Assembly: GCA_027484685.1 (NCBI GenBank)
Contig: JAIXSO010000049.1
Location: 1 to 64,000 of the forward strand
Reading direction: 5' to 3'
Length of the DNA stretch: 64,000 nucleotides
Source of the DNA: Bacteroidota bacterium
GTDB lineage: Bacteria; Bacteroidota; Bacteroidia; UKL13-3
Shown here one piece after another: positions 25,972-50,471 of the stretch. Both the position numbers and the translations under genes were made by a program. The notes beneath the pieces are model-generated. The model was not told the DNA's origin and did not search any database. It saw nothing but the letters and a program-made list of their open reading frames with translations. Numbering within the stretch: position 1 is the stretch's first letter; the number at the start of each line of letters is the position of its first letter.

Positions 25972-25992
25972 AGTAATTAGCCACTAGCCATT
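25972..25992. repeat. Short heptamer array
   Basis: Three 7-base units (AGTAATT, AGCCACT, AGCCATT) lie between two glycosyltransferase genes. The unit resembles the CTAG/GCCA-type heptamers at 31237 and 48937. Confidence 0.5.
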
Positions 25993-25995
25993 AAC

Positions 25996-27147
25996 TTAAA
26001 GTATTTGTTTATAATAATTTAACAATTTAGCCTCTTCTTTATCCCAATTAAAGTTTTGAGAAGCTAAAATGCAGTTTTTACTCAACTTTTGATAGGTATT
26101 TCTATTATTCAGCAATTCATTGATTGCTTTGGCAATCTCGTTAACCTCACAATCAATTAAAACACTACAATTATACTTTTTGTGAACAGCCTGGTATTCA
26201 GGAAAATTAGCACAAATACAAGGTACACCGGCCTGCATATAATCAAAAAATTTATTGGCTAACGAGTAATAATAACTCAAACCATTAGGTTCTAATAAAT
26301 TCAAACCCACTTTTGCATTTACTGTTAATTGTTTTAAATCCGCAGGTTGAACAAAACCTAAAAACTGTACTTTATTTTCTAACTTTTCTTTTACAACTAA
26401 ATCGCGTAATTCTCTACTCAAATCGCCTTCTCCAGCTATGAGTAACTTTATATTTTCAACCTGATGCATGGCCAAAATACTTTGCTCCAAACCCCGACTT
26501 TTATTTAAAGCACCTTGGTATAATATGTATCCATTATTTTCCCCATCAACTTCATTAACCTTATCAACCCTATTAACTTCATCAACTCCATCAACTTTAT
26601 CAACCGCATCAACCATAACAGGAACATTCATAATTACCTCAAAATGATTAACATACATATTGCTCAATAAATCAGCCAATTGTGGGCCAACAGTATAACA
26701 CAACTTTGCTTTTGGTATAAATATTTTCCCAATCACATGCCAAATGGTTTTGGTAATTTTTCTATTAGTAACCTCTGGAACTTCGGTAAAATGCTCGTGT
26801 GCATCAAAAATTAAAGTATTGTTATTTAAAGTAGCGGTAATACCACAAGCTAAAATTGTATCTAAATCTATGGCACAAATGGCATTGGTTTTTTGCCTTA
26901 ACAAATACCACAATAACCTCAAATTAAACTCTAAATAAAACAGCTTGCCTTTATTTATTTTACAAGTTAAACGTGTTTGATTAAAGTTAAAGTCTGTTTT
27001 TAATGGTTTGGAATGAGGCAATTTACGACCAACCAATTCCACCTCATAACCTGCATTGGCAAGGCTTGAGCAAATGCGCTGCATGCGTTGGTCGTAACTT
27101 AAGTCGTTGGTTACGGTAAATATTATTTTTTTATTTTTTAGCTGCAA
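25996..27147 (-). CDS. GT4-type glycosyltransferase with an internal 9-base tandem repeat
   Basis: A 383-residue GT-B glycosyltransferase. The N-terminal acceptor half starts KKIIFTVTNDLSYDQRMQRI and contains DAHEHFTEVPE. The donor half contains YQGALNKSRGLEQ, GEGDLSRELR and NKFFDYMQAGVPCIC. The start is TTG at 27147, 10 bases inside the end of recQ; no better start exists and the N-terminus fits the family. Residues 178-202 are a Val-Asp-x repeat encoded by eight 9-base units, inserted in the linker between the two Rossmann domains just before GYILYQGAL. It probably acts in glycan assembly; the sugar is unknown. Confidence 0.88.
   Translation of the reverse strand: MQLKNKKIIFTVTNDLSYDQRMQRICSSLANAGYEVELVGRKLPHSKPLKTDFNFNQTRLTCKINKGKLFYLEFNLRLLWYLLRQKTNAICAIDLDTILACGITATLNNNTLIFDAHEHFTEVPEVTNRKITKTIWHVIGKIFIPKAKLCYTVGPQLADLLSNMYVNHFEVIMNVPVMVDAVDKVDGVDEVNRVDKVNEVDGENNGYILYQGALNKSRGLEQSILAMHQVENIKLLIAGEGDLSRELRDLVVKEKLENKVQFLGFVQPADLKQLTVNAKVGLNLLEPNGLSYYYSLANKFFDYMQAGVPCICANFPEYQAVHKKYNCSVLIDCEVNEIAKAINELLNNRNTYQKLSKNCILASQNFNWDKEEAKLLNYYKQIL
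26543..26614. repeat. Eight-unit 9-base tandem repeat inside a glycosyltransferase gene
   Basis: Eight consecutive units of the form NNATCAACN or NNATTAACN run from 26543 to 26614. Because the unit is a multiple of three, the frame is kept and the array encodes V-D/N-x triplets. It is a likely site for copy-number change. Confidence 0.85.
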
Positions 27148-29057
27148 TGTAATTGGTAAGCACTATCGTAGCGCAATTTATTATTATCTAACAAAAGCCT
27201 TAGTACAATGGTAAAAACTTGCATATCTTGGGTAGATACTTTTTCGAATAAATCTACTGAATTAATAGGCCCTTGTTGTACTATGGTTAAAATTTCTTGT
27301 TCTATAATTTGTGTTAATTCCTTTTTCTCATTTAATTTTTTTCTATCAATACACACATCGCAATAGCCGCAATCATTGGCACTGTAATCGTTAAAGTATT
27401 CTAATAGCTGCCTACTTCTACATAAATCGCTTGGATTGGCATAAGCCATCATGGCTTGTATTTTTTCAATATAAGTTTGCTTACGTTCTGCTAAATATTT
27501 TTTGTTTAAAGTTAAGTATTTTATGTCTTGCCTTTCGGTTACAAAAGTAAGTTGCGATACTTCTTTGGTTTTGATATAATCTAAAATTTCTAACTGATGT
27601 AATCTTTCTAAATACTTATAAATACTGGCCACAGGCAGCTTTACCCTATTGGCAATTTCGAGTTCATTTATTCTTATATAATTATCAAATAAACCTCCAT
27701 AACTACGCAATAATAATTTGGTAAAAGCATCAAAAGTGGCATTCTCTACCTGAAACTTATACAAAGCTTCATGGCTACAAATTATTTTAATTTTTGATGG
27801 TTCGTAAAATGCTTCTGATAATAAAATTAAGTTGGTTTGTTCTAATATTTTTAAACAACTATACGTTTTAAATGCTTCAAAATTATAGCGTTTTACAAAC
27901 GATATAATATCAAAATCAAAACTACGCTCAGGCTTCGCGTTTACTGGCACTTGCAGGTAATCGCAAATGGCTTGATAGGTTAAACTTATTTCGTTTACAT
28001 CAGGATAATTTACACCAATTTTTTTCTTAGCGTTTATATCATCGCTTGTATCGTGTAACAAAACACAAAATGCTGGTCGCTCGTCTCTCCCTGCCCTACC
28101 TGCTTCTTGGTAATAAGCCTCCAAACAATCAGGCATTTCAAAATGAACTACCAACCTACAATCTGGCTTATCTATTCCCATACCAAAAGCATTGGTACAA
28201 GCCATAATTCGTGTACGGTTATTAATCCACAAGTTTTGTTTATAGCTGCGCATTTCGCCACTTAAACCAGCATGGTAAAAATCGGCAGCAATGCCATTTT
28301 GATTTAAAAATTTAGCAATATCTTCCGTTTGTTTTCTGTTTCTAACATATACCAATCCGCTTCCGTGGCTATTTTTTATAATAGCTAATAACTTTTCAGC
28401 TTTATTTTCGGTTTGCCTTACTATGTATTGTAAATTTTTTCGTTCAAAACTTTTAGCAAAAACTGCTGGAGTATTTAAAGCCAATTGAGTTTGAATATCT
28501 TCAACAACTTGTTTGGTAGCTGTAGCTGTAAGCGCAATGATATTGATGTTTGGTAAATGCTGGCGCAATTCAGCTATTTGTCGGTATTCAGGTCTAAAAT
28601 CGTGCCCCCACTGACTGATACAATGTGCCTCATCAATGGCAATTAAATTAATGGGTAAATAAGGTAATTTTTCAATGAATAAACTGGTATTTAAACGCTC
28701 TGGCGAAACGTATAAAAACTTCAAATCTTCATCAACGCAAGCATTGTTAAGTATTAAATTTATTTCTCTGTAATTTAAACCGCTGTATATGGATTTGGCT
28801 TTGATGTTTCGTTTTTCCAAGTTTTCTACTTGGTCTTTCATTAAAGCTATTAAAGGCGAAATTACCAAACACAAACCTGGCTTAACCATAGCTGGAACCT
28901 GAAAACACAAGGATTTACCACCACCCGTTGGCAAAAGCGCAAGCGTATCTTTTCCATCTAAAACCGATTGAATGATATCGGCTTGCAATGGTCTAAATTG
29001 ATTATAGCCCCAATAATTTTTAAGTATTTGCTGAGGTGTAACTTGGCTTTGCTCCAT
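27138..29057 (-). CDS. recQ: ATP-dependent DNA helicase RecQ
   Basis: A 639-residue 3'-5' helicase. Motif I is LLPTGGGKSLCFQ, motif II IDEAHCISQWGHDFRPEY, and motif VI YYQEAGRAGRDE. The RecQ zinc-binding region near the end of the core has the Cys cluster CRSRQLL ... CGYCDVC. A winged-helix-like C-terminal part follows (GPINSVDLFEKV), but there is no recognisable HRDC domain; such a shorter form is common in Bacteroidota. It unwinds recombination and fork intermediates. The downstream glycosyltransferase start overlaps its 3' end by 10 bases. Confidence 0.95.
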   Translation of the reverse strand: MEQSQVTPQQILKNYWGYNQFRPLQADIIQSVLDGKDTLALLPTGGGKSLCFQVPAMVKPGLCLVISPLIALMKDQVENLEKRNIKAKSIYSGLNYREINLILNNACVDEDLKFLYVSPERLNTSLFIEKLPYLPINLIAIDEAHCISQWGHDFRPEYRQIAELRQHLPNINIIALTATATKQVVEDIQTQLALNTPAVFAKSFERKNLQYIVRQTENKAEKLLAIIKNSHGSGLVYVRNRKQTEDIAKFLNQNGIAADFYHAGLSGEMRSYKQNLWINNRTRIMACTNAFGMGIDKPDCRLVVHFEMPDCLEAYYQEAGRAGRDERPAFCVLLHDTSDDINAKKKIGVNYPDVNEISLTYQAICDYLQVPVNAKPERSFDFDIISFVKRYNFEAFKTYSCLKILEQTNLILLSEAFYEPSKIKIICSHEALYKFQVENATFDAFTKLLLRSYGGLFDNYIRINELEIANRVKLPVASIYKYLERLHQLEILDYIKTKEVSQLTFVTERQDIKYLTLNKKYLAERKQTYIEKIQAMMAYANPSDLCRSRQLLEYFNDYSANDCGYCDVCIDRKKLNEKKELTQIIEQEILTIVQQGPINSVDLFEKVSTQDMQVFTIVLRLLLDNNKLRYDSAYQLHCS

Positions 29058-29073
29058 TTTACAATAACAAAAA

Positions 29074-29724
29074 TTACAGAATTAAACCATCTTTCATGGT
29101 TAATTTTCTATCGCAACGATTGGCTAACTCTTCGTTATGCGTAACAATAACTATGGTTTGATTGAATTTATCTCTTAAATCAAAAAACAAATCATGAAGC
29201 GATTGGGCACTTGCCGAATCTAAATTTCCACTTGGTTCATCGGCCAATAAAACCGCTGGATTATTAATAATGGCTCGCGCCACAGCCACACGTTGCTGCT
29301 CGCCTCCACTTAACTCACTTGGTTTATGAGTTGTTCTGTCTTTTATTCCTAAATAGTCAAATAATTCCAAAGCACGTTGTTTGGCTTGAGTTTTATTGGT
29401 TTTAGCTATCCAAGCTGGAATCATTACATTTTCAAAAGCGGTAAACTCAGGCAGCAACTGATGAAACTGAAAAATAAAACCAATGTTTTTATTTCTAAAA
29501 TCCGACAGTTTACTATCATTCAAACTATTCACCAATTGCTCGTTTAGTAGCAAAGTTCCAGTATCGGCTTTATCTAAAGTACCTAAAATTTGTAATAAAG
29601 TAGTTTTACCAGCTCCACTTGCGCCCACTATAGCTACAATTTCGCCCTTGCCAATGTTTAAGTTAATTCCTTTTAACACCTGCAATTGGTTATAACTCTT
29701 ACAAATATTTTCTGCTTTTATCAT
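29074..29724 (-). CDS. ABC transporter ATP-binding protein, LolD-like
   Basis: The ATG at 29724 gives 216 residues; the longer open frame to 29835 runs through a heptamer repeat and a palindrome and is rejected. Walker [10 protein letters not shown] (34-42), signature [14 protein letters not shown], Walker [13 protein letters not shown] and switch His are intact. Size and motifs fit the LolD/MacB-type group, which powers lipoprotein release from the inner membrane or efflux. No LolC/E-type permease is adjacent, so the partner is presumably elsewhere. It is followed by recQ 16 bases downstream on the same strand. Confidence 0.9.
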
Positions 29725-29745
29725 GAGAGGCAAATTTATATTAAA

Positions 29746-29780
29746 TTTTGGATTTTGAATGTTGAATTTTGGATGAGTTG
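29746..29780. repeat. Heptamer array upstream of the LolD-like gene
   Basis: Five consecutive 7-base units (TTTTGGA, TTTTGAA, TGTTGAA, TTTTGGA, TGAGTTG) lie directly upstream of the ATPase start codon. Confidence 0.7.
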
Positions 29781-29790
29781 GGACAATTGC

Positions 29791-29848
29791 GTAGAGACGT
29801 TGCACTGCAACATCTTTTATATAAAGACGTAACATGTTACGTTTCTAC
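29791..29848. repeat. Double palindrome, REP-like element
   Basis: GTTGCA-C-TGCAAC (29799-29811) is followed by the perfect 16-base palindrome ACGTAACATGTTACGT (29827-29842). The outer arms GTAGAGACG and CGTTTCTAC are nearly complementary, so the 58 bases can fold as one long or two short hairpins. The arm GTAGAGACG resembles intergenic repeats of Bacteroidota and cyanobacteria. The rest of the gap up to 29977 shows nothing I can assign. Confidence 0.65.
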
Positions 29849-29977
29849 TTTTTCCCTCGCGGCTATATTGATATGATTAGCGAAGCGTTATTGGGATTTG
29901 TTATGAAATATCGTGTCAGATAGTTACGAACAGCAACGCAATTGCTTAGCGAAAAAACTATAAATTGTTTGAAATTT

Positions 29978-30550
29978 TTACAATTTTACATTAACTAAAT
30001 TCAATGTATCATTACTTGTTGGAATAACAATTTGTAGCAATCCTTCTTTTAGTGTAAATAAATATCCTAGTGTAGTAGTAGAATTTTCAGGATTAATTTT
30101 TTTAACATTATTATAGTAGTTTCCTTCTATTAACAAAGAATCAGAAGATGGTTGTTTTAAATAACCCGCATTTAATGATCTACTCTTGTTCTTGTAACTT
30201 ATAATCATTGTTCTACTACCTGGTTTTAAAAAAGTATGTTGTATCGTAATTTTATCACTATTTTTAGTACAAATAAAAACTATGTACCTTCGTTGAAGAT
30301 TATATGTTTGGGGGCAATATTCTTGGCTTGTATATTTACCCCAATCATATACATAACCTTGTCCAACAAATAAATTGGTATCTAGAGTAGTTTTATTAAT
30401 AAAGGTTAGCTCAGAAAAGTCATTATAGGGTACCACTTTTAACTCTTCTATTGGCTGGTATTCATCACTACTTTGATGACCACAATCACTATCTTTTTTG
30501 CAAGAATTATTCAATAGCAAGCTAATAATAAATATGAGTTTTAATTTCAT
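29978..30550 (-). CDS. Lipoprotein of unknown function
   Basis: The ATG at 30550 is chosen because it starts a signal peptide with lipobox (MKLKLIFIISLLLNNSC, Cys17); the frame extends to 30577. The 190-residue product has a short linker after the Cys, then a beta-rich domain with TFINKTTLDTNLFVGQG, a lone Cys in EYCPQ, and a Cys in IVFICTKN. I recognise no family. It stands alone, separated from the LolD-like gene by the palindromic element and facing away from smpB. Confidence 0.72.
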   Translation of the reverse strand: MKLKLIFIISLLLNNSCKKDSDCGHQSSDEYQPIEELKVVPYNDFSELTFINKTTLDTNLFVGQGYVYDWGKYTSQEYCPQTYNLQRRYIVFICTKNSDKITIQHTFLKPGSRTMIISYKNKSRSLNAGYLKQPSSDSLLIEGNYYNNVKKINPENSTTTLGYLFTLKEGLLQIVIPTSNDTLNLVNVKL

Positions 30551-30727
30551 TATACTTGCTGATTTTAAAATTTCCATTCAATTTGTTTTAAATAAATTAC
30601 TCAAACTTAAAGTGTTTTATCGGTAAAATAAAATTTTTGCCATTATAGCATTAAAACAAAACACCCACCAACTTATCAACCCATACTCAAAAAACAAAAA
30701 AATAGTTTTTCTTTGTACGTTCAAATC

Positions 30728-31189
30728 ATGAGTAAAGATAAAGCTTACAAGCGCATTAATATTGTAAATAAAAAAGCAAGTTTTGAGTTTCAACTATTAA
30801 CCAAATACACGGCCGGAATGGTATTAGGTGGTACTGAAGTAAAATCTATCAAAGCTGGAAATGCCTCTATTACAGAAGCTTTTTGTTATTTTAGAGATAA
30901 TGAGCTTTATGTTAGGAATATGAATATTGGTACTTTTAAACAAGGAACCATTTATAACCACGACCCACTTGCGGTACGTAAACTTCTTTTGAAAAAGGTA
31001 GAACTAAAAAAGCTGCAAAAACGTGGCGAAGAAAAAGGTTTTTCCATTGTTCCCCTTAAATTATTTGAAGCCGAAAATGGTTTTATAAAAATAGAAATTG
31101 CGCTTGCACAAGGTAAAAAAGCCTTCGATAAACGCGAAACCATCAAAGAACGAGACATTGAACGAAATTTGAGACGAAAGGACGAGTAA
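30728..31189 (+). CDS. smpB: SsrA-binding protein
   Basis: Binds tmRNA and delivers it to stalled ribosomes for trans-translation. The ATG at 30728 gives 153 residues, the usual length; an upstream TTG in frame at 30713 is not needed. Conserved segments are NKKASFEFQLLTKYTAGMVL, GTEVKSI, and AFCYFRDNELYVRNM, with a basic C-terminal tail (KKAFDKRETIKERD). The adjacent downstream spacer contains heptamer repeats. Confidence 0.96.
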   Translation: MSKDKAYKRINIVNKKASFEFQLLTKYTAGMVLGGTEVKSIKAGNASITEAFCYFRDNELYVRNMNIGTFKQGTIYNHDPLAVRKLLLKKVELKKLQKRGEEKGFSIVPLKLFEAENGFIKIEIALAQGKKAFDKRETIKERDIERNLRRKDE

Positions 31190-31190
31190 T

Positions 31191-31280
31191 TGTGAGATGG
31201 GAAATGTGAGATGTGAAATGAGTTCGATAAACTTATCTGCTAGAGACTAGAATCAATAGCCGTTCGGCTTTAGCCAACGG
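31191..31280. repeat. Heptamer arrays followed by a palindrome, between smpB and the SDR gene
   Basis: TGTGAGA, TGGGAAA, TGTGAGA, TGTGAAA and TGAGTTC run from 31191 to 31225. A second short array, CTGCTAG-AGACTAG-AATCAAT, lies at 31237-31257. A hairpin, CCGTT-C-GGCT/AGCC-AACGG, follows at 31260-31280, ending 14 bases before the SDR start codon. There is no T-run after the hairpin. Confidence 0.7.
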
Positions 31281-31294
31281 AAAAAAAGAAAAAA

Positions 31295-32083
31295 ATGAAT
31301 ATAGATTTAACAAATAAAAATGCATTGGTTTGCGGTAGTACCAAAGGTATTGGTTATGCCATTGCTATGCAATTAGCAAAATGTGGAGCAAACGTTACTT
31401 TAATGGCCCGAAACGGTAATTTATTACAAAGTATTGTGCGCGATTTAGATACCAGTTTAGGACAAAAACATGATTTTTTAGTTGCCGATTTTAGTCAACC
31501 AAAACAAGTAAAAGAAGCCATAGAAGTACAAGCACAAAAACACCATATTTACCATATTTTGGTGAATAATAGCGGTGGCCCTGTGGCTGGTTTAGCCATT
31601 GATGCCAAAGAAGAAGATTTTTTAAATGCATTTAATGCACATGTTTTAAGTAGCCATCATTTGGTGCAAAGCGTTTTCCCAGGTATGAAACAAGCAGGCT
31701 ACGGACGCATTATAAATATTATTTCTACCAGTGTAAAAATTCCTTTAAAAGGTTTAGGAGTAAGCAATACAATTAGAGGTGCAATGGCTAATTACAGCAA
31801 AACATTGGCTAACGAATTAGCTCCTTTTAAAATTACAGTAAACAATATTTTACCTGGAGCAACAGCAACAGATAGGTTGAAACAAATTATAGACAACAAA
31901 GCTCAAAAACAACAACACAGCACTGACGAAGTGAGTCAAGAAATGTTAAGCGAAATTCCTATGGGTCGTTTTGGCGAACCAAACGAAATAGCTTATGCAG
32001 CTACCTTTTTAGCTTCGGAATATGCATCGTACATTACTGGAATTAATGTTCCGGTAGATGGAGGAAGAACTGGAAATCTTTAG
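31295..32083 (+). CDS. SDR-family protein lacking the catalytic Tyr/Lys
   Basis: A 262-residue Rossmann protein. The cofactor loop GSTKGIG (14-20) and ARN fit an NADP(H)-binding classical SDR, and NNSGGP (91-96) replaces the usual NNAG. Ser144/Ser146 occupy the catalytic Ser position, but the YxxxK expected 13 residues later reads S-N-T-I-R (157-161). The C-terminal PGATATDRL and the final VPVDGGRTG are normal. Family members of this NSGGP type are often labelled oxoacyl-ACP reductases. Missing Tyr and Lys suggest a different chemistry or a binding role. It stands alone between repeat elements. Confidence 0.85.
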   Translation: MNIDLTNKNALVCGSTKGIGYAIAMQLAKCGANVTLMARNGNLLQSIVRDLDTSLGQKHDFLVADFSQPKQVKEAIEVQAQKHHIYHILVNNSGGPVAGLAIDAKEEDFLNAFNAHVLSSHHLVQSVFPGMKQAGYGRIINIISTSVKIPLKGLGVSNTIRGAMANYSKTLANELAPFKITVNNILPGATATDRLKQIIDNKAQKQQHSTDEVSQEMLSEIPMGRFGEPNEIAYAATFLASEYASYITGINVPVDGGRTGNL

Positions 32084-32108
32084 TTGATGGTTGATAGTTG
32101 TCAGTTGA
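32081..32108. repeat. Heptamer array at the 3' end of the SDR gene
   Basis: Four 7-base units (TAGTTGA, TGGTTGA, TAGTTGT, CAGTTGA) begin at the SDR stop codon, which is itself the TAG of the first unit. The array matches, in reverse complement, the one inside hisS at 47751-47785. Confidence 0.75.
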
Positions 32109-32246
32109 TAGAGTAAGTTTCTTTCTGCTGGATTTTGGCATCAAGTTTCTAGTAAAAAACCACATAGAACATAAACACATAGCTAATAAACTATGCTTCT
32201 ATATTCTATGTGGTTAAATATTTATTTTAAAAAATCACTCAAAAAG

Positions 32247-33365
32247 TTATTCAAAATCCCACCAAATACTATCAGGATAGTTTTGGTTTATAATTACTGG
32301 TTGACCAATTAACGGTGTGGTAGTTTTTACATTATTTTGTTTTGCAATGGTGGTTACTTGTTTAATCGGCTCGTTCCAAGGATGCAAAGCAAGGGTAAAT
32401 TTACTCCAATGAACCGGCATTAATACTTTGGTTTTTAAATCAATTGCAGCCTGAACTACTTGCTCTGGCATCATGTGTATATAACCCCACATTTTATTGT
32501 ATTGCCCACATTCCAATAAAGCTAAATCGAATGGGCCATATTTATTACCAATTTCTTTAAAGTGCGTATCAAAACCGCTATCGCCACCTAAAAATATATT
32601 TTCGGTTGGTGTTTTTAAAATATACGATGCCCAAAGTGTTTGGTTACGCTTAAATTTCCTACCTGAAAAATGCCTTGCAGGAGCAGCTGTTAACTGAATA
32701 TCATTGCTTATTTTCAACGAATCCCACCAGTCAAATTCCGATATTTTATCATCGGTTATTCCCCAAGAATTTAAATGAGCACCAACTCCCAACGAGGTAT
32801 AAAAATGTTTGGTTTTATGCTTTAATTTATCAATGGTTTTATAATCCAAATGATCATAATGATCGTGTGTGATTATTACCATATCTAATTCAGGAAAATC
32901 ATCTACATTATATTCATTAGCTCCATCATAGTTTTTAGCAAAAAAACTTACAGGAGAAGCATTTCCACTAAAAACTGGGTCAATCAATATATTCAAGCCA
33001 TTGGTTTTAATAAAATAAGAAGAATGACCAAACCAAATTATTTGAGTTTTAGAACTATCCAATGCTAATAAATTAGTTTTTACAGAAGGAATTTTTTGTT
33101 TTGGTTCACTTAATTTAGTTTTATTTATATAGGCTTTTAAAATATCAAAATAGCTTGTTCCTTCGGCTAAATCAGGGGTAAAATGCTGGTTTTGGAAAGC
33201 TCCATCTCGGTAATTAGGCGATTTTTTTACTCGCTCTAGTCTATTTCCAGTTGGTACTTGACCAAATTGTTTTTGTTCTAAAAAAATATATCCACTGGTA
33301 GATAAACCCAATAAGATTGCAATAAATATAATCATTCGTTTTTTAAATTTTGATTGAAGTTTCAT
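32247..33365 (-). CDS. MBL-fold metallohydrolase, NAPE-PLD-like
   Basis: The ATG at 33365 gives 372 residues; a TTG at 33380 is rejected. One N-terminal membrane helix (MIIFIAILLGLSTSGYIFL) anchors the protein, probably with the enzyme in the periplasm. The metallo-beta-lactamase motif THDHYDHLD and later histidines (APARHFSGR, MPVHWSKF) bind two metal ions. The segments VKKSPNYRDGAFQN and WFGHSSYFIK are typical of the group related to N-acylphosphatidylethanolamine phospholipase D and UlaG-type proteins. The substrate is probably a phosphodiester, but this is inferred from the family. Confidence 0.88.
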   Translation of the reverse strand: MKLQSKFKKRMIIFIAILLGLSTSGYIFLEQKQFGQVPTGNRLERVKKSPNYRDGAFQNQHFTPDLAEGTSYFDILKAYINKTKLSEPKQKIPSVKTNLLALDSSKTQIIWFGHSSYFIKTNGLNILIDPVFSGNASPVSFFAKNYDGANEYNVDDFPELDMVIITHDHYDHLDYKTIDKLKHKTKHFYTSLGVGAHLNSWGITDDKISEFDWWDSLKISNDIQLTAAPARHFSGRKFKRNQTLWASYILKTPTENIFLGGDSGFDTHFKEIGNKYGPFDLALLECGQYNKMWGYIHMMPEQVVQAAIDLKTKVLMPVHWSKFTLALHPWNEPIKQVTTIAKQNNVKTTTPLIGQPVIINQNYPDSIWWDFE

Positions 33366-33448
33366 TTTTTGAAGGAGCAAATGAAACTAATAATTGCTTT
33401 CATTTCATATAGATTTTTACTGGAAATGATAAAAGGTAAAAAAATAAA

Positions 33449-33479: not shown

Positions 33480-33492
33480 AAGTATAATAAGC

Positions 33493-34656: not shown

Positions 34657-34683
34657 ATTTTATATAATTAATTAATTTTCAAA

Positions 34684-40870: not shown

Positions 40871-40891
40871 CTGCTATTTTATTAATATACA

Positions 40892-43075: not shown

Positions 43076-43110
43076 ATTTTAAATTTTGTTATTAGCTCTT
43101 AATCTAGTAC

Positions 43111-43848: not shown

Positions 43849-44028
43849 CAGTTTGCTGATTTAATATTTTATAAAAATTACTTGGTTCAAATTAAACTTA
43901 TTAATACCTATAAATATTTTACAGTTATTTACACAAAATGTCGCTATGTCTATTTTTTTAAAACGTTGATTAAATTATATTTTATTTTCCAATTTGATTT
44001 TTAAACTTGTACCAAATAAAATACCCTT

Positions 44029-45231
44029 ATGACAATAGTTAAAGATAGAGACATAATAGTTGTTGGTTTACAACCTTGGGATGGAGAAATTGGTAGTAAT
44101 TGTAAAAATATTGCTATTGAATTTGCTAAACACAATAGGGTTTTATACGTTAATTATCCACTAGATAGGATTAGTATAAAACGAGAAGCCAACAACCCGT
44201 TAATTGCAAAAAGGATTGATATTTTAACCAATAAAAAAGATAATTTATTGCAAATAAATAATACAACTTGGCAGCTATATCCTAGCTGTGTTTTAGAAAG
44301 TATAAACTGGCTTCCAAGTACTTTTTTATTTAAAATCATCAATAAAATTAACAATTGGAAGTTTGCTTCTGAAATAAAAAAAGCGGCAGATGCACTTAAT
44401 TTTAAAAACTATATTTTATTTAATGATAGTGATATGTTCAGGAGCTATCACTTACAAGAAATGCTTAAACCAGCTTTAAGTATGTACTACACTCGCGATA
44501 ATATGATGAGTGTTCCTTATTGGTATAAACATGGACATATTTTAGAACCTGAATTAGTAGCCAAAAGTGATGTTATTACAGCTAACTCAACCTATTTGGC
44601 CGACATTGCAAAGCAACACAATCCTAAAAGTTATTACGTAGGCCAAGGATGCGAAACTGAAGCATTTGATTTAGAAAAAATAACATACACACCTAAAGAT
44701 ATTGAACACATTAAGGGGCCAATTATTGGCTATATTGGAGCTTTATATAAACTGCGCTTAGACCTTGATTTAATTGAACATATAGCTAATACAAAACCAG
44801 AATGGAGTGTAGTTTTAATTGGCCCGGAAGATGATGCTTTTAAACAATCGAATTTGCATCAATTAGCAAATGTTCATTTTCTTGGGTTAAAAGATACAAC
44901 CGAACTACCTGCTTATTTAGCTAAGTTTGATGTAGCTATCAATCCACAAATTTTAAATGAGGTTACTATTGGTAACTATCCAAGAAAAATTGACGAATAC
45001 TTAGCTATGGGAAAACCCACGGTAGCTACAGAAACTAAAGCTATGAGTATATTTAAAGATTACACCTATTTAGGGAAAACCAAAGAAGATTACATTATAT
45101 TAATTGAAAAAGCTTTAGCTGAAAATACACTAGAAAAACAACAAGAACGAATTAAATATGCGCGTTCGCATACCTGGGAAAATAGCGTTGCTGAAATTTA
45201 CAAAGCCATGTTATCTACCAACAAACTTTAA
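44029..45231 (+). CDS. Glycosyltransferase (GT4-like), divergent from the exopolysaccharide cluster
   Basis: A 400-residue GT-B enzyme. The N-terminal half begins DIIVVGLQPWDGEIGSNC and contains FNDSDMF and YTRDNMMSVPYW, a pattern of Bacteroidota capsule-locus glycosyltransferases. The donor half has IGYIGALYKLRLD, VVLIGPEDD, FLGLKDTTELPAYLAKFDVAINP and EYLAMGKPTVAT. The 180-base divergent spacer to the minus-strand cluster probably holds promoters for both directions. It is followed 32 bases downstream by the acyltransferase gene, and both likely complete the polymer made by the cluster. Confidence 0.88.
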   Translation: MTIVKDRDIIVVGLQPWDGEIGSNCKNIAIEFAKHNRVLYVNYPLDRISIKREANNPLIAKRIDILTNKKDNLLQINNTTWQLYPSCVLESINWLPSTFLFKIINKINNWKFASEIKKAADALNFKNYILFNDSDMFRSYHLQEMLKPALSMYYTRDNMMSVPYWYKHGHILEPELVAKSDVITANSTYLADIAKQHNPKSYYVGQGCETEAFDLEKITYTPKDIEHIKGPIIGYIGALYKLRLDLDLIEHIANTKPEWSVVLIGPEDDAFKQSNLHQLANVHFLGLKDTTELPAYLAKFDVAINPQILNEVTIGNYPRKIDEYLAMGKPTVATETKAMSIFKDYTYLGKTKEDYIILIEKALAENTLEKQQERIKYARSHTWENSVAEIYKAMLSTNKL

Positions 45232-45263
45232 TTATACATATTAACCTTTAATACCCTATAAAA

Positions 45264-45878
45264 ATGTCAATAGTTGATACCATAAAAAGTAATCCAAATT
45301 TAAAAAAATTTGTACATTGGACTTTAATTCCTAAAGGTCAAGCAAGGCCGCGTACTTGGGTAAAATGGTTTGTAAATCCTTTTATTCATAAAAAAGGAAA
45401 GGGCGCTACCATTAGGCGAAGAACTCGTGTTGATGTACTGCCGTTTAATCCATTTGAACTTGGCGATAATTCTACCATTGAAGATTTTAGTACCATTAAT
45501 AATGGTGTGGGAGCTGTAAAAATTGGTAATGGAGTGCGCATTGGAATGAGCAACGTGGTAATAGGCCCTGTAACCATTGGCAATAATGTAATATTTGCAC
45601 AAAACATAGTTACTAGTGGCTTAAACCATGGATATGAAGATATTAATATTCCTATTTGTAAACAACCAACTACCACTGCTTTAATAACCGTAGAAGACGA
45701 TTGTTGGATTGGTGCAAATGCAGTATTAACAGCAGGTGTAACCATAGGTAAACATACGGTAATAGCTGCTGGAGCAGTAGTAACTAAAAGCATTCCTCCT
45801 TTTTCTATTGCAGTTGGAAACCCTGCAAAGGTTATTAAACAATATAACTTTGAAACTAAGCAATGGGCTAAGGTTTAG
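45264..45878 (+). CDS. Hexapeptide-repeat acyltransferase
   Basis: A 204-residue left-handed beta-helix protein. Successive hexapeptide turns are seen in VKIGNGVRIGMSNVVIGPVTIG and CWIGANAVLTAGVTIGKHTVIAAGAVVTKS. The C-terminal VGNPAKVIKQYN is typical of the LbetaH acyltransferase family. It probably adds O-acetyl or a similar group to a sugar, using acetyl-CoA. It lies directly after the glycosyltransferase gene, fitting polysaccharide decoration. The residue at the catalytic His is in the N-terminal repeats (LNHGYED). Confidence 0.92.
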   Translation: MSIVDTIKSNPNLKKFVHWTLIPKGQARPRTWVKWFVNPFIHKKGKGATIRRRTRVDVLPFNPFELGDNSTIEDFSTINNGVGAVKIGNGVRIGMSNVVIGPVTIGNNVIFAQNIVTSGLNHGYEDINIPICKQPTTTALITVEDDCWIGANAVLTAGVTIGKHTVIAAGAVVTKSIPPFSIAVGNPAKVIKQYNFETKQWAKV

Positions 45879-45939
45879 GCTGTGAATTATATTGTACATT
45901 TACTTGCCAAATATCATATTTCAGTCATATTATATAAAA

Positions 45940-45947
45940 TATATTTG
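45940..45947 (+). promoter_or_regulatory. Candidate -7 box for the cytochrome c gene
   Basis: TATATTTG is an exact TAnnTTTG match 23 bases upstream of the cytochrome c start codon at 45971. A -33 TTG is not evident, so the call is moderate. Confidence 0.5.
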
Positions 45948-45970
45948 TGGGGTAATTAAAATTAATACAA

Positions 45971-46399
45971 ATGAAAAAAATAACGATAATACTAGCATTT
46001 GCTGCCATTTTTGTTGGAGCATGTTCATCAGGAAGTAATGAAAACAGTTCTTCGTCAAGCAATACACAAAGTACTACTAAAGAGCATCCAAGCACTGCAC
46101 CTACCACTAGCGAAGCCACCGTTAGCTCTGATATGATTCAAGTTCCGGCAGACATTAATGAATTACTTAATAAAAATACTTGTTTAAGTTGTCACGATGC
46201 TAATGATAAAGTGGTAGGGCCTCCATACAAAGAAATAGCAAAACGTAACTACACTGCCAAAGAAATTGTGGAACTAATTTACAAACCAAAACCTAGCAAC
46301 TGGCCTGATTACCCATCGCCAATGATTGGTTTACCTAATGTACCTAAAGACGAAGCTTTAAAAATAGCGGAGTGGATAGTTTCATTAAACAAAAAATAA
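45971..46399 (+). CDS. Class I cytochrome c lipoprotein
   Basis: A 142-residue lipoprotein (lipobox FVGACSSGS, Cys18) with a long Ser/Thr-rich linker and one cytochrome c domain. The heme site is CLSCH (72-76) and the likely Met axial ligand is in SPMIGLPNVP. The C-terminal EALKIAEWIVSL is typical. It probably carries electrons in the periplasm, attached to the membrane by its lipid. It stands alone with its own terminator. No oxidase or reductase gene is adjacent. Confidence 0.92.
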   Translation: MKKITIILAFAAIFVGACSSGSNENSSSSSNTQSTTKEHPSTAPTTSEATVSSDMIQVPADINELLNKNTCLSCHDANDKVVGPPYKEIAKRNYTAKEIVELIYKPKPSNWPDYPSPMIGLPNVPKDEALKIAEWIVSLNKK

Positions 46400-46410
46400 T
46401 TATTATTTTG

Positions 46411-46442
46411 AAAAGCAGCTGATAAATTCAACTGCTTTTTTT
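46411..46442 (+). terminator. Terminator after the cytochrome c gene
   Basis: AAAAGCAG (46411-46418) pairs with CTGCTTTT (46432-46439), extended by TGA/TCA after one mismatch, and is followed by further T residues. Confidence 0.85.
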
Positions 46443-46501
46443 ATTTGGAAAAGCAATTACATTAAATTTTATTTTTCATAAAATAATTGCATCATTGTTT
46501 T

Positions 46502-47398
46502 ATGGAACAAAATAAAAGCATCTTATTTTTAATCAATCCTTTTTCGGGTAATGGAAACGGTTTAAAAACTGCCCAAATTGCTGTAAAAGAGGCTAAAAAT
46601 AAAGGTTATAAAACCATTGAGTTTGTTAGCAAATATGCTGGTCACTTAAGTGAATTTACCCAACTTTTTTCTGTAAACGAAATTGCTAAAATAGCAGTAA
46701 TTGGTGGTGATGGAAGCATGCACGAAGTAGTGAATGCCGCTGCCAATAATCCTATATGGTTGCAAGTGCCTTATGTATTATTTCCAAGCGGAACTGGCAA
46801 TGCATTTACTTACGATTTAAATTGTTTAACCACAACTCAAGCCATCAATTTACTGCTAAATGGAACCGAAACTTTAATTGATTTAGCCGAAGTAAAAAAC
46901 CACCAAGGCAGCATTTGGTCGTTTAATATTATTGGCTGTGGTTTAGTGGCTGATATTAACCTTTCGGCCGAAAAAATGCGCTTATTCAAATCGGCTAGGT
47001 ACAATATTGCTTCGCTACTTAATATTGTAAAAAACCCAACTATTAAAGCTAAAGTTACGGTTAATGATCAAGTTATTGATAGCGATTTTTGTTTTTTATT
47101 GGCTTGTAACACACGTTATACAGGCAAGGCCATGAAAATGGCGCCATTAGCAAAACTAAACGATGGTTTAGTTGATTTTTTAATCGTAGAAAAAACATCT
47201 AGATTTAAGTTACTTAATTTGTTTCCAAAAGTATTTAGTGGTAAACATTTGGAAGCACCCATTTTAAAATATATTCAAACCAACTATATTAAAATAGAAA
47301 CGCAACATGCTGGTTTGGTTAATATTGATGGGGAAATAAAAGGCAATACCCCAATGGAAATAATTATCCATAAGCAAAAGTTAAAGATTTTAAGTTAA
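46502..47398 (+). CDS. Diacylglycerol kinase-family lipid kinase
   Basis: The ATG at 46502 gives 298 residues; a TTG at 46487 is rejected. The catalytic domain has INPFSGNGNG, the nucleotide loop GGDGSMHEVVNA and FPSGTGNAF, all typical of the DagK/YegS/sphingosine-kinase group. The C-terminal half is beta-rich (VNIDGEIKGNTP). It phosphorylates a lipid alcohol such as diacylglycerol at the inner face of the membrane. It stands alone upstream of hisS. Confidence 0.94.
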   Translation: MEQNKSILFLINPFSGNGNGLKTAQIAVKEAKNKGYKTIEFVSKYAGHLSEFTQLFSVNEIAKIAVIGGDGSMHEVVNAAANNPIWLQVPYVLFPSGTGNAFTYDLNCLTTTQAINLLLNGTETLIDLAEVKNHQGSIWSFNIIGCGLVADINLSAEKMRLFKSARYNIASLLNIVKNPTIKAKVTVNDQVIDSDFCFLLACNTRYTGKAMKMAPLAKLNDGLVDFLIVEKTSRFKLLNLFPKVFSGKHLEAPILKYIQTNYIKIETQHAGLVNIDGEIKGNTPMEIIIHKQKLKILS

Positions 47399-47504
47399 CT
47401 AAATCCTTAATAACAGCTATTTTAAGTTAAAAACTATCATTTTATTCACTTAAAGCAAAGTTTGCAAACATGCACTTTGTGGTATTACTTTGCAGCCTTA
47501 AATT

Positions 47505-48890
47505 ATGGCAAAAGAAAAACCAAGCATTCCTAAAGGTACCCGCGATTTTGGGCCACAAGAAGTAGCTAAACGAAAATATATTTTAAATACCATTGAAAAA
47601 GTTTTTATAAAATATGGCTTTATGCCTATAGAAACGCCCACCATGGAAAACCTAAGCACACTTACCGGCAAGTATGGCGATGAAGGTGATAAGTTGTTGT
47701 TTAAAATATTGAATAGCGGTGAATATTTGAAGGAATTAACGCCTGAAATCCTATCAACTAACAACCATCAACTTTCAACTAAACTCATTTCAGAAAAAGG
47801 CCTTCGCTACGATTTAACAGTTCCTTTTGCGCGCTATGTGGTAATGAATAGAAATGAAATTACTTTTCCGTTTAAGCGTTATCAAATGCAGCCTGTATGG
47901 CGCGCTGATAAACCTCAAAAAGGGCGTTACCGTGAGTTTTGGCAATGCGATGCGGATGTGGTTGGAAGTGATAGTTTATTGCATGAATTAGATTTGATAA
48001 ACATTTATAGTGAAGTTTTTAAGGGTTTAGGTATTGATGTTGAAATTAAAATAAATAACCGTAAAGTTTTAGCTGGAATAGCCGAAGTTGTTAAAGGAAT
48101 TGAGCACTTAAACACCATTGCGGTAGCAATTGATAAACTAGATAAAATTGGCAAAGATGGGGTAAGCAAAGAATTATCAGAACTTGGTTTTTCTGATTTA
48201 GAAATTGAAAAACTTTTTGATATTATAACCATAAAAGGCAATGAATCAGAAATGCTTGAAACTTTGAAAATAAAATTACAAAGTTCACAAGAAGGTTTGA
48301 AAGGTATTGAAGAATTAGAATTTATTTTTAACCTAATCAACCAATCAATCAATGAACCTACTAACTTAAAAACCGACTTCTCACTAGCACGTGGCCTCTC
48401 CTACTACACAGGTTGTATATTTGAAGTAGCTGCGGTGAAAGGTTCATTAAGAAGCAGCATTGGCGGAGGAGGCAGATATGATAACCTTACTGGAATTTTT
48501 GGATTAGATGGTGTTTCGGGTGTTGGAATATCTTTTGGTTTGGATAGGATTTATGATGTATTAGAAGAATTGAAATTGTTCCCAGAAACATTATCTCAAG
48601 GTAGTAGCAAAGTATTAATTTGTGCAAGTAATTCTATTGAAAATATTGAGCTTGCACCTGTTTTGCAAATATTAGGCACTTTAAGAAATAACGGCATTGC
48701 ATCGGAATTATACACCGAAAAAATTAATGTTAAAAAACCTTTGGAAAAGCCTATTAAATATGCTAGCAGCAAAAAAATTCCTTACGCACTTATTTATACT
48801 GAAAACGAACCTTTAAAACTAAAAAATTTAGAAACTGGTTTCCAGGAGGAGTTGAGTATGGAGGAAATTGTAGAGAAGTTGAAAGGTTGA
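47505..48890 (+). CDS. hisS: Histidine--tRNA ligase with repeat-derived insert
   Basis: A 461-residue class II synthetase charging tRNA-His. The start PSIPKGTRDFGP, motif 2 region (RADKPQKGRYREFWQCDADV), ARGLSYYTG, GGGRYDNLTG and the C-terminal anticodon-binding domain are present. Residues 83-94 (ILSTNNHQLSTKL region) are encoded by a five-unit heptamer array at 47751-47785, placed in a loop just before SEKGLRYDLTVPF where family members vary. A one-mismatch -7 box (TTACTTTG) lies at 47485-47492. The stop codon falls in another short array (48876-48908). Confidence 0.96.
   Translation: MAKEKPSIPKGTRDFGPQEVAKRKYILNTIEKVFIKYGFMPIETPTMENLSTLTGKYGDEGDKLLFKILNSGEYLKELTPEILSTNNHQLSTKLISEKGLRYDLTVPFARYVVMNRNEITFPFKRYQMQPVWRADKPQKGRYREFWQCDADVVGSDSLLHELDLINIYSEVFKGLGIDVEIKINNRKVLAGIAEVVKGIEHLNTIAVAIDKLDKIGKDGVSKELSELGFSDLEIEKLFDIITIKGNESEMLETLKIKLQSSQEGLKGIEELEFIFNLINQSINEPTNLKTDFSLARGLSYYTGCIFEVAAVKGSLRSSIGGGGRYDNLTGIFGLDGVSGVGISFGLDRIYDVLEELKLFPETLSQGSSKVLICASNSIENIELAPVLQILGTLRNNGIASELYTEKINVKKPLEKPIKYASSKKIPYALIYTENEPLKLKNLETGFQEELSMEEIVEKLKG
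47751..47785. repeat. Heptamer array inside hisS
   Basis: Five 7-base units (CTATCAA, CTAACAA, CCATCAA, CTTTCAA, CTAAACT) encode residues 83-94 of HisS. The reverse complement shares AGTTGATGGTTG and AGTTGATAG with the array at 32081. Confidence 0.78.
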
Positions 48891-48908
48891 TAAGTTGACT
48901 AGTTAGTA
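48876..48908. repeat. Octamer array across the hisS stop codon
   Basis: The units GAAGTTGA, AAGGTTGA, TAAGTTGA and CTAGTTAG run through the last codons of hisS and its TGA stop. Confidence 0.6.
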
Positions 48909-48936
48909 AATTAATTATTATAAATTTTAAAACAAA

Positions 48937-48971
48937 CTGCTAGTTGCTAGAAGCCAGCTGCTAGTGGCCAA
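48937..48971. repeat. Heptamer array upstream of hutH
   Basis: Five 7-base units (CTGCTAG, TTGCTAG, AAGCCAG, CTGCTAG, TGGCCAA) end 9 bases before the hutH start codon. The CTGCTAG unit also occurs at 31237. Confidence 0.72.
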
Positions 48972-48980
48972 AAGAAAAAA

Positions 48981-50471
48981 ATGTACGAAATAAGCACCCA
49001 AATAAGCATTGAAGAAATTCAAGATATCATTGCAAATAACAAGCAAATCAAATTAAGCGATGATGCTAAAGCTCGCATTGTAAAATGCAGAACTTATTTA
49101 GATGAAAAATTAGCCAATAACGAAAAACCCATTTATGGGATAAACACTGGTTTTGGATCATTGCATAGCACCAAAATTAGCAACGAAAACTTAGTTCAAT
49201 TACAAGAAAATTTGTTGCTTAGTCATGCTTGCGGAACTGGCGATTTAGTGCCACACGAAATCATCAAAATTATGTTGTTGCTAAAAGTGCAATCATTGGC
49301 TTACGGCCATTCAGCAGTACAATTAGAAACTGTTGAAAGATTGATTTATTTCTTTAACAATAATATTTTACCAGTAGTTTTTGAATTAGGTTCTTTAGGC
49401 GCCAGTGGCGATTTAGCTCCATTGGCACATTTAAGTTTACCATTGATTGGTGAAGGAAATGTTTACGTTTTAGAAAGTTCGAAGTTTGAAGTTCGAAGTT
49501 CGAAGTCAATTTTGGAATCACATAAACTTAATCCAATAAAACTTAAATCGAAAGAAGGTTTAGCTTTAATCAATGGTACACAATTTATGAGTGCTTATGG
49601 TGTTTATTGCTTGATAAAAGCTAACCAACTTTTAACTAAAACCGATTTTATAGCAAGTATTTCTATTGATGCTTTTGATTGCAGATTGGAGCCTTTCCAT
49701 CATTTATTGCATGATGTTCGTCCGCATAAAGGACAAATAAATACAGCCAAAAACATATTAGCCAATTTAGCAGATTCAGAAATTGCAAAACAACCAAAAG
49801 TACAAGTGCAAGATCAATATGCATTTAGATGTATTCCACAAGTACATGGTGCAAGCAAAGACGCCATTGAACACATCAATAAAATTTTTACAACCGAAAT
49901 AAACTCAGTTACCGATAATCCAAATGTATTTGCCGATGAAGATTTAATCCTTTCTGGAGGTAACTTTCACGGACAAACTTTGGCCATTCATTTAGATTTT
50001 TTGGCCATTGCTTTGGCTGAATTAGGCAGTATTTCAGAAAGAAGAACTTATCAGTTAATATCTGGACAACGTAAATTGCCAGCGTTTTTGGTTAGCAATC
50101 CTGGTTTAAACTCAGGCTTTATGATTCCGCAATACACAGCAGCAAGTATTGTTAGTCAAAACAAACAATTGTGTACACCAGCCTCTGTTGATTCTATTGT
50201 AAGTAGTAATGGACAAGAAGACCATGTAAGTATGGGTGCAAATGCAGCTACCAAATGCTTGCGTGTAGTTAAAAATTTGGAAAGAATTGTGGCAATAGAA
50301 TTGCTGAATGCAAGCCAAGCTTTGGAATTCAGACGTCCGCTAAAAAGTGCTTCAAAAATTGAAAGGTATATAGCTGCATACCGCCAAAAAGTTCCATTTG
50401 TAACCAAGGATAGATTTTTACATGATGATATTGAAAACAGTGTGTTGTTTTTGAATGAAACGGATGTATAA
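48981..50471 (+). CDS. hutH: Histidine ammonia-lyase with repeat-derived insert
   Basis: Converts histidine to urocanate and ammonia, the first step of histidine breakdown. This 496-residue enzyme has the self-made MIO cofactor triad Ala141-Ser142-Gly143 in GSLGASGDLAPLAH, plus YGINTGFG, NGTQFMSAYG and FRCIPQVHG. Residues 165-175 (SSKFEVRSSKS) derive from a heptamer array at 49475-49507 inserted in frame in a loop after GEGNVYV. No hutU, hutI or hutG gene is adjacent. It could also belong to an aromatic ammonia-lyase branch, but His lyase is the best fit. Confidence 0.92.
   Translation: MYEISTQISIEEIQDIIANNKQIKLSDDAKARIVKCRTYLDEKLANNEKPIYGINTGFGSLHSTKISNENLVQLQENLLLSHACGTGDLVPHEIIKIMLLLKVQSLAYGHSAVQLETVERLIYFFNNNILPVVFELGSLGASGDLAPLAHLSLPLIGEGNVYVLESSKFEVRSSKSILESHKLNPIKLKSKEGLALINGTQFMSAYGVYCLIKANQLLTKTDFIASISIDAFDCRLEPFHHLLHDVRPHKGQINTAKNILANLADSEIAKQPKVQVQDQYAFRCIPQVHGASKDAIEHINKIFTTEINSVTDNPNVFADEDLILSGGNFHGQTLAIHLDFLAIALAELGSISERRTYQLISGQRKLPAFLVSNPGLNSGFMIPQYTAASIVSQNKQLCTPASVDSIVSSNGQEDHVSMGANAATKCLRVVKNLERIVAIELLNASQALEFRRPLKSASKIERYIAAYRQKVPFVTKDRFLHDDIENSVLFLNETDV
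49475..49507. repeat. Heptamer array inside hutH
   Basis: Four units (AAGTTCG, AAGTTTG, AAGTTCG, AAGTTCG) plus a partial fifth lie in the hutH coding region. The translated product is SSKFEVRSSKS, a low-complexity peptide. Confidence 0.82.

Follow-up and report, generated by a model that had tools for sequence, protein, structure and literature searches.

Background

Arrays of tandem heptanucleotide units are known from cyanobacteria and Beggiatoaceae, and there is no agreement on their origin or role. As far as the cited accounts go, the STRR (short tandemly repeated repetitive) sequences of filamentous cyanobacteria are degenerate repeats, usually of 7 bp, that lie between genes and can form hairpins (PMC2670836); heptanucleotide repeats are also described in the P6b stem of the trnL intron (PMC2670836, PMC3488679), and the title of Vioque 1997 places STRR inside rnpB. 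TAACTGA direct repeats occur in Beggiatoaceae, some cyanobacteria and five Bacteroidetes. In BOGUAY, most sets are directed at a start codon, the biggest group of them stopping 1 nt short of it, and some sets lie in reverse orientation within variable regions of ORFs; the arrays are proposed to be sites for RNA-binding proteins, with the S1, Csp and Csr families as candidates (PMC4679880). For the long simple sequence repeats (LSSR) treated in the same paper, 7 is the most frequent of the long periods, and a polymerase-footprint idea is credited to Mrazek et al. 2007 (PMC4679880). REP elements, linked with RAYT (Y1_Tnp) transposases, are dispersed intergenic palindromes.

Here we describe arrays found in a stretch of 64,000 nucleotides from an uncultured Bacteroidota bacterium (contig JAIXSO010000049.1, positions 1 to 64,000; "the window") and in related genomes. 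An earlier note on this DNA regarded STRR as the nearest described analogue, which the description in PMC2670836 supports in the features it gives (usual 7-bp unit, intergenic position, hairpin capability). Judged by the accounts cited, both consist of degenerate 7-bp tandem units dispersed between genes, with some inside functional genes. The present arrays differ from STRR in belonging to another phylum, in being directed towards start and stop codons (a rule that we know from Bacteroidia arrays alone), in forming outward-facing pairs and in being replaced by other families between congeners. With the TAACTGA repeats they share the unit, AACTGAT being an AACTNNN heptamer, and the pointing at start codons; however, TAACTGA repeats have one dominant heptamer and related heptamers are rarely repeated, whereas here there are many variants and additional families, the lock to stop codons is as frequent as that to start codons, and there are paired arms. 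The heptanucleotide class of LSSR, as summarised in that paper, has the same period, but the units here are degenerate, and one of the families has a direction and keeps to gene edges. Set beside the known heptamer arrays, the present ones stand out by a directional lock at start as well as stop codons, by pairs that face outwards, and by a unit family that changes within one orthologous gap; the function and copying mechanism discussed below are proposals.

Repeat sites in the window

The earlier note had listed ten repeat sites between positions 25972 and 49507. We measured the strength of each site as its best 21-base self-match, and then compared the number of equally good places in the window with the mean of 40 dinucleotide shuffles. 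The described sequence is roughly present at all ten sites, but its strength is uneven: five period-7 sites are clear, three are not, the period-8 site is marginal, and the period-9 site is a separate matter. The clear arrays are those at 49475 (19 of 21 bases; 1 place in the window against 0.0 in shuffles), at 29746 (17 of 21; 2 against 0.1), and at 31191, 32081 and 47751 (each 16 of 21; 7 against 0.8). Taken alone, the period-8 array at 48876 is marginal (16 of 21; 1 against 0.55), and the period-7 sites at 25972 (13 of 21; 38 against 37.1), 31237 (11 of 21; 194 against 212.4) and 48937 (14 of 21; 18 against 12.2) do not rise above chance. The 9-base array at 26543 beats chance (17 of 21; 1 against 0.08) but represents a three-codon period within a glycosyltransferase ORF. 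The sequence bears out the note on TAGTTGA, which stands at 32081 and recurs in reverse complement at 47751, some 15.7 kb away.

Table 1. Arrays and associated genes in the window
Feature	Position	Strand	Remarks
Weak period-7 stretch, CTAGTGG/CTAATGG-like	25972..25996	-	Ends at stop codon of glycosyltransferase gene 25996-27147; not above chance alone
Period-7 array ATTTTGG/ATTTTGA	29738..29775	-	In called 5' part of ABC-transporter ORF (29074-29835), ahead of domain (from residue 54)
smpB	30713..31189	+	Array directly after
Period-7 array TGTGAGA/TGGGAAA/TGTGAAA	31191..31222	+	First base two bases past smpB stop codon
Two CTAG-type units	31237..31250	+	Gap ahead of SDR gene; not above chance alone; congeners have longer CTAG-type arrays
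Short-chain dehydrogenase (SDR) gene	31295..32083	+	Basis of ten-species gene-end comparison
TAGTTGA array	32081..32111	+	AACTNNN family on minus strand; begins at TAG stop codon of SDR gene
hisS (histidyl-tRNA synthetase)	47505..48890	+	
Period-7 array CTATCAA/CTAACAA/CCATCAA	47751..47780	+	Codes LSTNNHQLST, variable loop of HisS
Period-8 array	48870..48904	+	Spans hisS stop codon
CTAGNNG-type period-7 stretch	48937..48969	+	Ends 11 bases ahead of hutH start codon; not above chance alone; arrays at orthologous congener site
hutH-type aromatic amino acid lyase	48981..50471	+	
Period-7 array AAGTTCG	49471..49510	+	Codes SSKFEVRSSK, variable loop of HutH

A possible alternative start of the ABC-transporter ORF is the later ATG near 29727; were translation to begin there, the array would be a 5' leader. 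Searches of the window gave no tRNA and, at gathering scores, no known RNA family, and no intrinsic terminator, defined by a short G+C-rich stem with a loop of 3-8 and a following T run, was called at any of the listed array sites.

Genome-wide excess of period 7

The genome-wide excess of period-7 arrays that the earlier note anticipated is present: 464 kb of the genome contain 36 arrays against 3.2 in shuffled sequence. At a threshold of 17/21 the excess is largest for periods 7 (17 against 0.8), 14 (16 against 0.4) and 28 (10 against 0.0) and lesser for periods 8 (7 against 1.2), 16 (7 against 0.4) and 24 (7 against 0.2), with periods 6, 9, 12 and 21 also in smaller excess. In 864 kb examined at 16/21, there are 67 period-7 and 26 period-8 arrays; 48 of the 67 lie for the most part outside the ORFs, which take up 88% of the bases. 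Note that this 864-kb sample alone is unbiased, the other locus sets having been chosen by AACT-type matches. The arrays are patchy in occurrence, being found in 36 of 198 genomes of the class, and a single genus holds both rich and empty members.

Direction and position of the AACTNNN family

The main family, AACTNNN, is polar, is found at dozens of loci and recurs across many genomes. Its commonest variants among 391 units include AACTAAG (64), AACTAAA (45) and AACTATC (32). To describe its position, we defined an edge window of -12 to +10 nt from the coding edge and took uniform placement within the same gaps (2000 trials) as the null; 68 of 75 arrays could be placed, leaving out six inside ORFs and one without a left gene. 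Of the 68 arrays, 41 have the 3' end of the AACT strand at a start or stop codon (9.5 expected), and only two have the 5' end there. This holds for the unbiased sample (3' ends 14/25, null 2.7, trial maximum 7; 5' ends 1/25) and for the targeted sample (27/43, null 6.9, trial maximum 15; 5' ends 1/43). Where a start codon is the edge that follows, 16 of 33 arrays lie within the edge window, AACTGAT-type units pointing at the start codon being found among them, and many AACT arrays end 0-6 nt upstream of the start codon on the sense strand. The remaining 25 of the 41 edge-locked arrays abut stop codons, and there the AACT strand is the antisense one. Arrays of other families also lie at coding edges, in 15 of 42 cases against 8.0 expected (P 0.003).

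The 3' lock extends to other Bacteroidia (15/24, null 7.4, maximum 13; 24 of 31 arrays placed, from 26 of 30 loci, two of which, L225 and L226, are near-identical). In single genomes, it was found in G216 (10/12, null 2.0), G039 (6/8, null 1.6) and G213 (4/7, null 2.2), and in none of three arrays of G154, where five of eight arrays lie inside ORFs; this test placed 30 of 39 arrays and has four loci in common with that of the other Bacteroidia.

Outward-facing pairs and predicted hairpins

When two arrays on opposite strands share one gap, they face outward in all 12 cases, with 2-116 nt between the arms. RNA folding predicts that these pairs form hairpins, with 9-30 arm pairs and z of -2.5 to -8.3. 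Paired arrays number 9 of 72 intergenic arrays against 3.6 expected; most arrays are unpaired, and hairpin arms are not a universal rule. Among the 41 edge-locked arrays, an inverted partner beats 95% of shuffles in 10 and 95% of other gaps in 5. Single arrays are no more self-complementary than versions with permuted columns (mean percentile.473 over 86 arrays).

Orthologous gaps and coding loops

The same orthologous gap carries different unit families among congeners, and genes that are 94-98% identical in DNA bear entirely different arrays. At the 3' gap of the SDR gene, the unit family differs between congeners and the predicted hairpin is kept; arms from one species resemble each other more than they do when species are permuted (P 0.008, omitting G007, which is nearly the same as G002), and G000 is without a matching right arm there (rank 9 of 9). 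At the gap of a LOG-like gene, G000, G003 and G007 have the AACT type and six others have a compact GACCATG type; the gene itself has 95% DNA identity between G000 and G006. In one species pair, G003 and G006, with one genome per species compared, one array differs by 21 nt, which is three units. A histidine kinase locus had a clear orthologue in 5 of 10 congeners. G005 has no arrays in these orthologous gaps and nearly none elsewhere, yet it keeps the same genes.

The hisS and hutH loops keep their length, even though a step of 7 nt would shift the reading frame; the hutH comparison covers the 78 loops with matching anchors. Simple insertion was rejected for the hisS array, since most relatives shown have a loop of 108 nt whether arrays are present or not. 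The units of the hutH array change in concert: at one position all 5 do so, against 4-5 of 34 other sites. The array at the hisS 3' end looks as if it had been seeded by the last codons of hisS itself.

Similarity of units within and between arrays

If arrays grow by local duplication, their units may resemble each other more than those of other arrays. Since 47 of the 75 arrays compared were picked by pattern and look alike for that reason, the test bears on the 28 unbiased arrays, where it is weak. In this sample, C-class units are no more alike within arrays (.655) than between them (.689), without an adjacent-unit excess. Those of the G/A class reach.579 for adjacent units (P.065) and.721 for units two apart, a 14-nt step, against.536 for other arrays. 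In G039, neighbouring units resemble each other more than units from different arrays do (.847 against.770), and units of one array are not more alike than those of others in G216, G213 and G154. A single 21-mer recurs at 9 arrays from pattern-picked loci and at most at 2 among the unbiased 28. Taken as an argument against local duplication, the likeness of units within arrays is weak.

Origin of the arrays

Profile matches (Y1_Tnp, RVT_1) and gene flanks revealed no mobilising gene for the arrays. RAYT/Y1_Tnp was rejected as a generator, with matches in 21 of 22 genomes and overlap between array-rich and array-poor ones; the genome here has 15 Y1_Tnp matches, and the flanks of the three genes examined contain, unlike what a REP/RAYT relation would imply, no period-7 array, only one weak period-8 stretch and ordinary palindromes. 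Reverse transcriptase was likewise rejected (RVT_1 in 6/22, absent from the array-bearing G001, G003, G006, G009, G154, G173 and G216), as was loss of mismatch repair (MutS_V in 22/22).

The earlier note suggested one common process acting on unrelated units. The shared period, the several families and the excess over shuffles agree with this. An independent local origin of unrelated units is supported in part: AACTNNN recurs, edge-locked, directional and outward-paired, but local duplication is also visible, in the G/A-class units two apart, in hutH and at the hisS 3' end. The reading that we prefer, tentatively and at somewhat less than an even chance, is that the arrays are dispersed heptanucleotide families, chiefly the directional AACTNNN, that often abut start and stop codons, face outward with a predicted hairpin where two share a gap, and have probably spread by copying between loci followed by local duplication. 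Period, edge position, direction, outward pairs and change of family at orthologous gaps are features of the sequences compared; the steps that follow are conjectural. Units would have moved from arm to arm and from locus to locus by template switching or short-tract recombination, and arrays would afterwards change by local duplication. Purifying selection on coding sequence may determine how far inwards an array extends, and the arrays in the HisS and HutH loops could be the same repeat material, tolerated where the sequence is unconstrained and the frame stays open. Paired arrays may act at RNA ends, by terminating transcripts, protecting 3' ends or insulating neighbouring genes. A bolder form, which we regard as unlikely, makes AACTNNN arrays phylum-wide directional gene-edge elements that dock on start and stop codons, form outward hairpins and are swapped as complete cassettes between species with 98-99% identical neighbouring proteins, so that the fold of the gap is kept while its sequence is replaced.

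A somewhat improbable alternative is replication slippage with a preferred step of 7 or 8 nt, or twice that, from chance local seeds (the polymerase-footprint idea named above), selection leaving the arrays mainly outside coding sequence. The excess at periods 7, 14, 28 and 8, 16, 24 fits such a step, as do the likeness of G/A-class units two apart, the concerted change in hutH, the resemblance of the hisS 3' arrays to copies of the last codons and the 21-nt difference between G003 and G006. However, the edge lock, fixed direction and outward pairing of AACTNNN arrays are not predicted by local slippage of chance seeds; nor does slippage sit well with a single family recurring over many genomes, the C class without adjacent-unit excess, or the constant length of the hisS and hutH loops. 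Neutral debris, in which an AT-rich genome tolerates repeats in free sequence and short gaps beside protected coding sequence produce the edge position, is quite unlikely. The patchy occurrence, the persistence of the same genes in the nearly array-free G005 and the majority of unpaired arrays would suit it, but uniform placement in the same gaps yields no 3' edge lock, the 5' end is not locked, pairs face outward, and arms covary at one site. Least probable, and very doubtful, are binding sites for an RNA-binding protein in 5' leaders, as proposed for TAACTGA arrays (PMC4679880): many arrays do end just ahead of start codons on the sense strand, here, in other Bacteroidia and, in print, in Beggiatoaceae, but about half of the edge-locked arrays are at stop codons with AACT antisense, and the mRNA there has TAGTTNN, not AACTNNN.

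The edge lock, the outward pairs and the differences in family between congeners turn the question of origin and role into one of direct tests, for which the near-empty gaps of G005 form a natural contrast to its array-bearing congeners. If the stems matter, gene-end structure in Bacteroidota would have in them a layer that evolves fast; if they do not, the arrays would be the record of a copying process limited by codons.

Period and strength of the arrays

G000, the genome that holds the window, totals 4.53 Mb in 72 contigs; the window covers bases 1-64000 of its contig C15. Genomes G001-G009 belong to its genus, and the remaining ones are more distant. In 464 kb of G000, 17 period-7 arrays were found at 17/21 matches against 0.8 in shuffled sequences, so the genome-level excess that the earlier note set as a test is present. 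At the same threshold, there were 16 arrays of period 14 (0.4 in shuffles) and 10 of period 28 (0.0 in shuffles), and the period spectrum is maximal at 7 and its multiples, with smaller peaks at 8, 16 and 24 and also at 6, 9, 12 and 21. At 16/21 matches, 864 kb of G000 contained 67 period-7 and 26 period-8 arrays; of these 67, 48 fall largely outside the ORFs, which make up 88% of the bases. Lags 7, 14 and 21 are enriched in the 60 nt past stop codons (z 8.1, 8.5 and 4.7; 303 G000 genes with a co-directional neighbour); in the congener G005, for which only 30 such genes were available, they are not raised. The ten array sites noted earlier in the window differ in strength when compared with shuffles (see table).

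Arrays and associated features (window positions unless a locus is named)
Position	Feature	Observation
13485-16979	Large ORF	
16973	Period-7 stretch	Beside the 13-base array
17027-17070	13-base array (AGACCGTTGGGGC)	Shortly after the large ORF; G+C-rich for G000
25972	Period 7	Not above chance taken alone
26541-26614, minus strand	Period 9 (noted at 26543)	Codon-phased; in frame within the ORF of a glycosyltransferase, where it encodes a protein repeat of three residues
29746	Period 7	Clearly above chance
31191	Period 7	Clearly above chance
31237	Period 7	Not above chance taken alone
32081	Period 7	Clearly above chance
47751	Period 7	Clearly above chance
48876	Period 8	Marginal
48937	Period 7	Not above chance taken alone
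49475	Period 7	Clearly above chance
L306 (G009, gap before histidine kinase gene)	Period-8 array	Units AATTGTTA/AATTGTTG/AACTGTTA
L113:17819-17900	Perfect REP-type palindromes	Next to a Y1_Tnp (RAYT-like) gene; not related to the heptamers

Position and direction at gene edges

The main class consists of AACTNNN units. Arrays with three or more AACT words number 75; 28 come from the unbiased sample (the 864 kb of G000) and 47 from 40 loci targeted by AACT-type matches. On the AACT strand, the 3' array end meets either a same-strand ATG, mostly 0-6 nt off, where individual distances may be wrong because starts are first-ATG calls, or the stop of a gene on the opposite strand, where the commonest distance is exactly -5 and the TAG within the unit TAGTTNN serves as the stop codon. 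Using uniform placement of arrays inside each gap as the null, 3' ends fell within -12 to +10 nt of a coding edge (edge-locked) in 14/25 arrays of the unbiased sample (null 2.7) and 27/43 at targeted loci (null 6.9); 5' ends did so in 1/25 and 1/43. The figures for other Bacteroidia are 15/24 for 3' ends (null 7.4) and 5/24 for 5' ends. By genome, 3' ends were edge-locked in 10/12 arrays of G216, 6/8 of G039, 4/7 of G213 and 0/3 of G154, a set that overlaps the preceding one by four loci. On this sequence evidence, the arrays are docked and directional. Arrays outside the AACT class also lie at gene edges, in 15/42 cases against 8.0 expected (P 0.003).

Predicted pairing

In all 12 cases where opposite-strand AACT arrays share a gap, they point outward (five in G000, four in G216, two in G213 and one in G039), and RNA folding predicts 9-30 arm-to-arm pairs in these hairpins (z -2.5 to -8.3, n=12). 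Outward pairing is a minority arrangement: a partner better than 95% of shuffles was found for 10/41 edge-locked arrays, and one better than 95% of other gaps for 9/72 intergenic arrays. Single arrays are no more self-complementary than their column-permuted versions. Note that convergent gaps of G000 are predicted to fold strongly both with and without called arrays, and therefore a stem there is not array-specific.

Unit families and their distribution

Further families are GACCATN, CTAGNNG, AATTCNN and TTGCNNA. A query of three AACTAAG units, tolerating 3 mismatches at most (reversed pattern as control in brackets), gave 72 (2) matches in G000 and, among congeners, 42 (5) in G003, 63 (1) in G006 and 50 (2) in G009; G001, G002, G004 and G008 gave 21, 16, 16 and 23, and G005 and the 65% complete G007 one each. 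A four-unit AACT pattern is present in 36/198 genomes of the class, and one genus (g22) is mixed, with 23 and 39 matches in two members and 0 in four others. The more distant G051 has 0 matches to the AACT pattern and 24 to the pattern read backwards, which hints at a different heptamer family there.

At variable positions in the 28 unbiased arrays, adjacent units are alike at.607 against.505 between arrays when classes are pooled; the values are.655 against.689 in the C sub-class. In the G/A sub-class they are.579 against.536 (P.065), and units two apart reach.721. Arrays are therefore class-pure, and the G/A class has a 14-nt step. The excess similarity of adjacent units is present in G039 and absent in G216, G213 and G154. 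One exact 21-mer is common to 9/75 arrays; among unbiased arrays, at most two share one. We conclude that family dispersal and local duplication both act.

Replacement in orthologous gaps

Judged by sequence, families have been replaced between congeners. In the gap 3' of an SDR gene, 9/10 congeners start an array at the TAG stop; G005 has a TAA stop and the array is absent. The array sequence is TAGTTGATGG in G000, of TTAGTTTTTAG types in G006 and G008, TAGTTGTCAG in G002 and G007, and of GACGATR types in G001, G004 and G009; in G003 the first 17 nt are those of G000, after which a different family follows. DNA identity of the gene to G000 is 97% in G003, 94% in G006 and 90% in G009. Folding z is -2.0 to -7.7 across congeners (-5.4 for the short gap of G005), and same-species arms agree better than permuted species (P 0.008), those of G000 ranking last.

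The gap before a LOG-like gene (95% DNA identity, G000 and G006) is AACT-type in G000 and G003 (155 nt) and G007 (137 nt), holds predicted GACCATG-type hairpins of 50-52 nt in G001, G002, G004, G006, G008 and G009, and in G005 is 22 nt long with no stem. In the gap upstream of a histidine kinase gene, compared in five congeners, G000, G003 and G006 have arrays, those of G003 and G006 differing by 21 nt; G005 has 36 nt without an array, and in G009 a long one-sided period-8 array begins right past the stop codon, with no stem (z +1.1). The gap before hutH contains AACTAAG types in G001, G002, G003, G006, G008 and G009, AACTATC types in G018, and CTAG/GCCAG types in G000 and G004.

Arrays within hisS and hutH

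A hisS loop, 108 nt long in most relatives compared, carries AATTCGA-type arrays in G001, G002, G003, G006, G009 and G029, a TATCAAC array in G000 and a CTAACAA one in G018; the peptide type is the same in G005, where no array is called. Between G000 and G003, the loop window is 40% identical, against 81-100% in every other 60-nt window. The loop is an exchangeable site, because in G004, G008 and G019 it is occupied by unrelated inserts of far greater length (stretches of 276 and 378 nt against 108) (loci L009, L010 and L022).

The hutH loop has 34 residues in all eight group species compared, with a called array in 7/8. Between G000 and four congeners, one unit position differs in 5/5 units, against 4-5/34 other sites; the array is a case of concerted unit change with length kept. 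The HutH of the window is 94% identical to that of uncultured Bacteroidetes bacterium Loclat_bin-04791, the nearest named record among those encountered.

Relation to known repeats

PMC2670836 and PMC3488679 present heptanucleotide repeats of cyanobacteria as sequences that form hairpins; PMC2858038 cites Vioque 1997, which by its title concerns such repeats in rnpB. PMC4679880 describes TAACTGA arrays upstream of start codons. None of the entries listed by our search of open papers mentions direction towards both gene edges or family replacement between congeners. We regard the arrays as dispersed, directional heptamer families that are docked at gene edges and, by prediction, partly form intergenic stems; their units may be copied, and the arrays may function at RNA ends.
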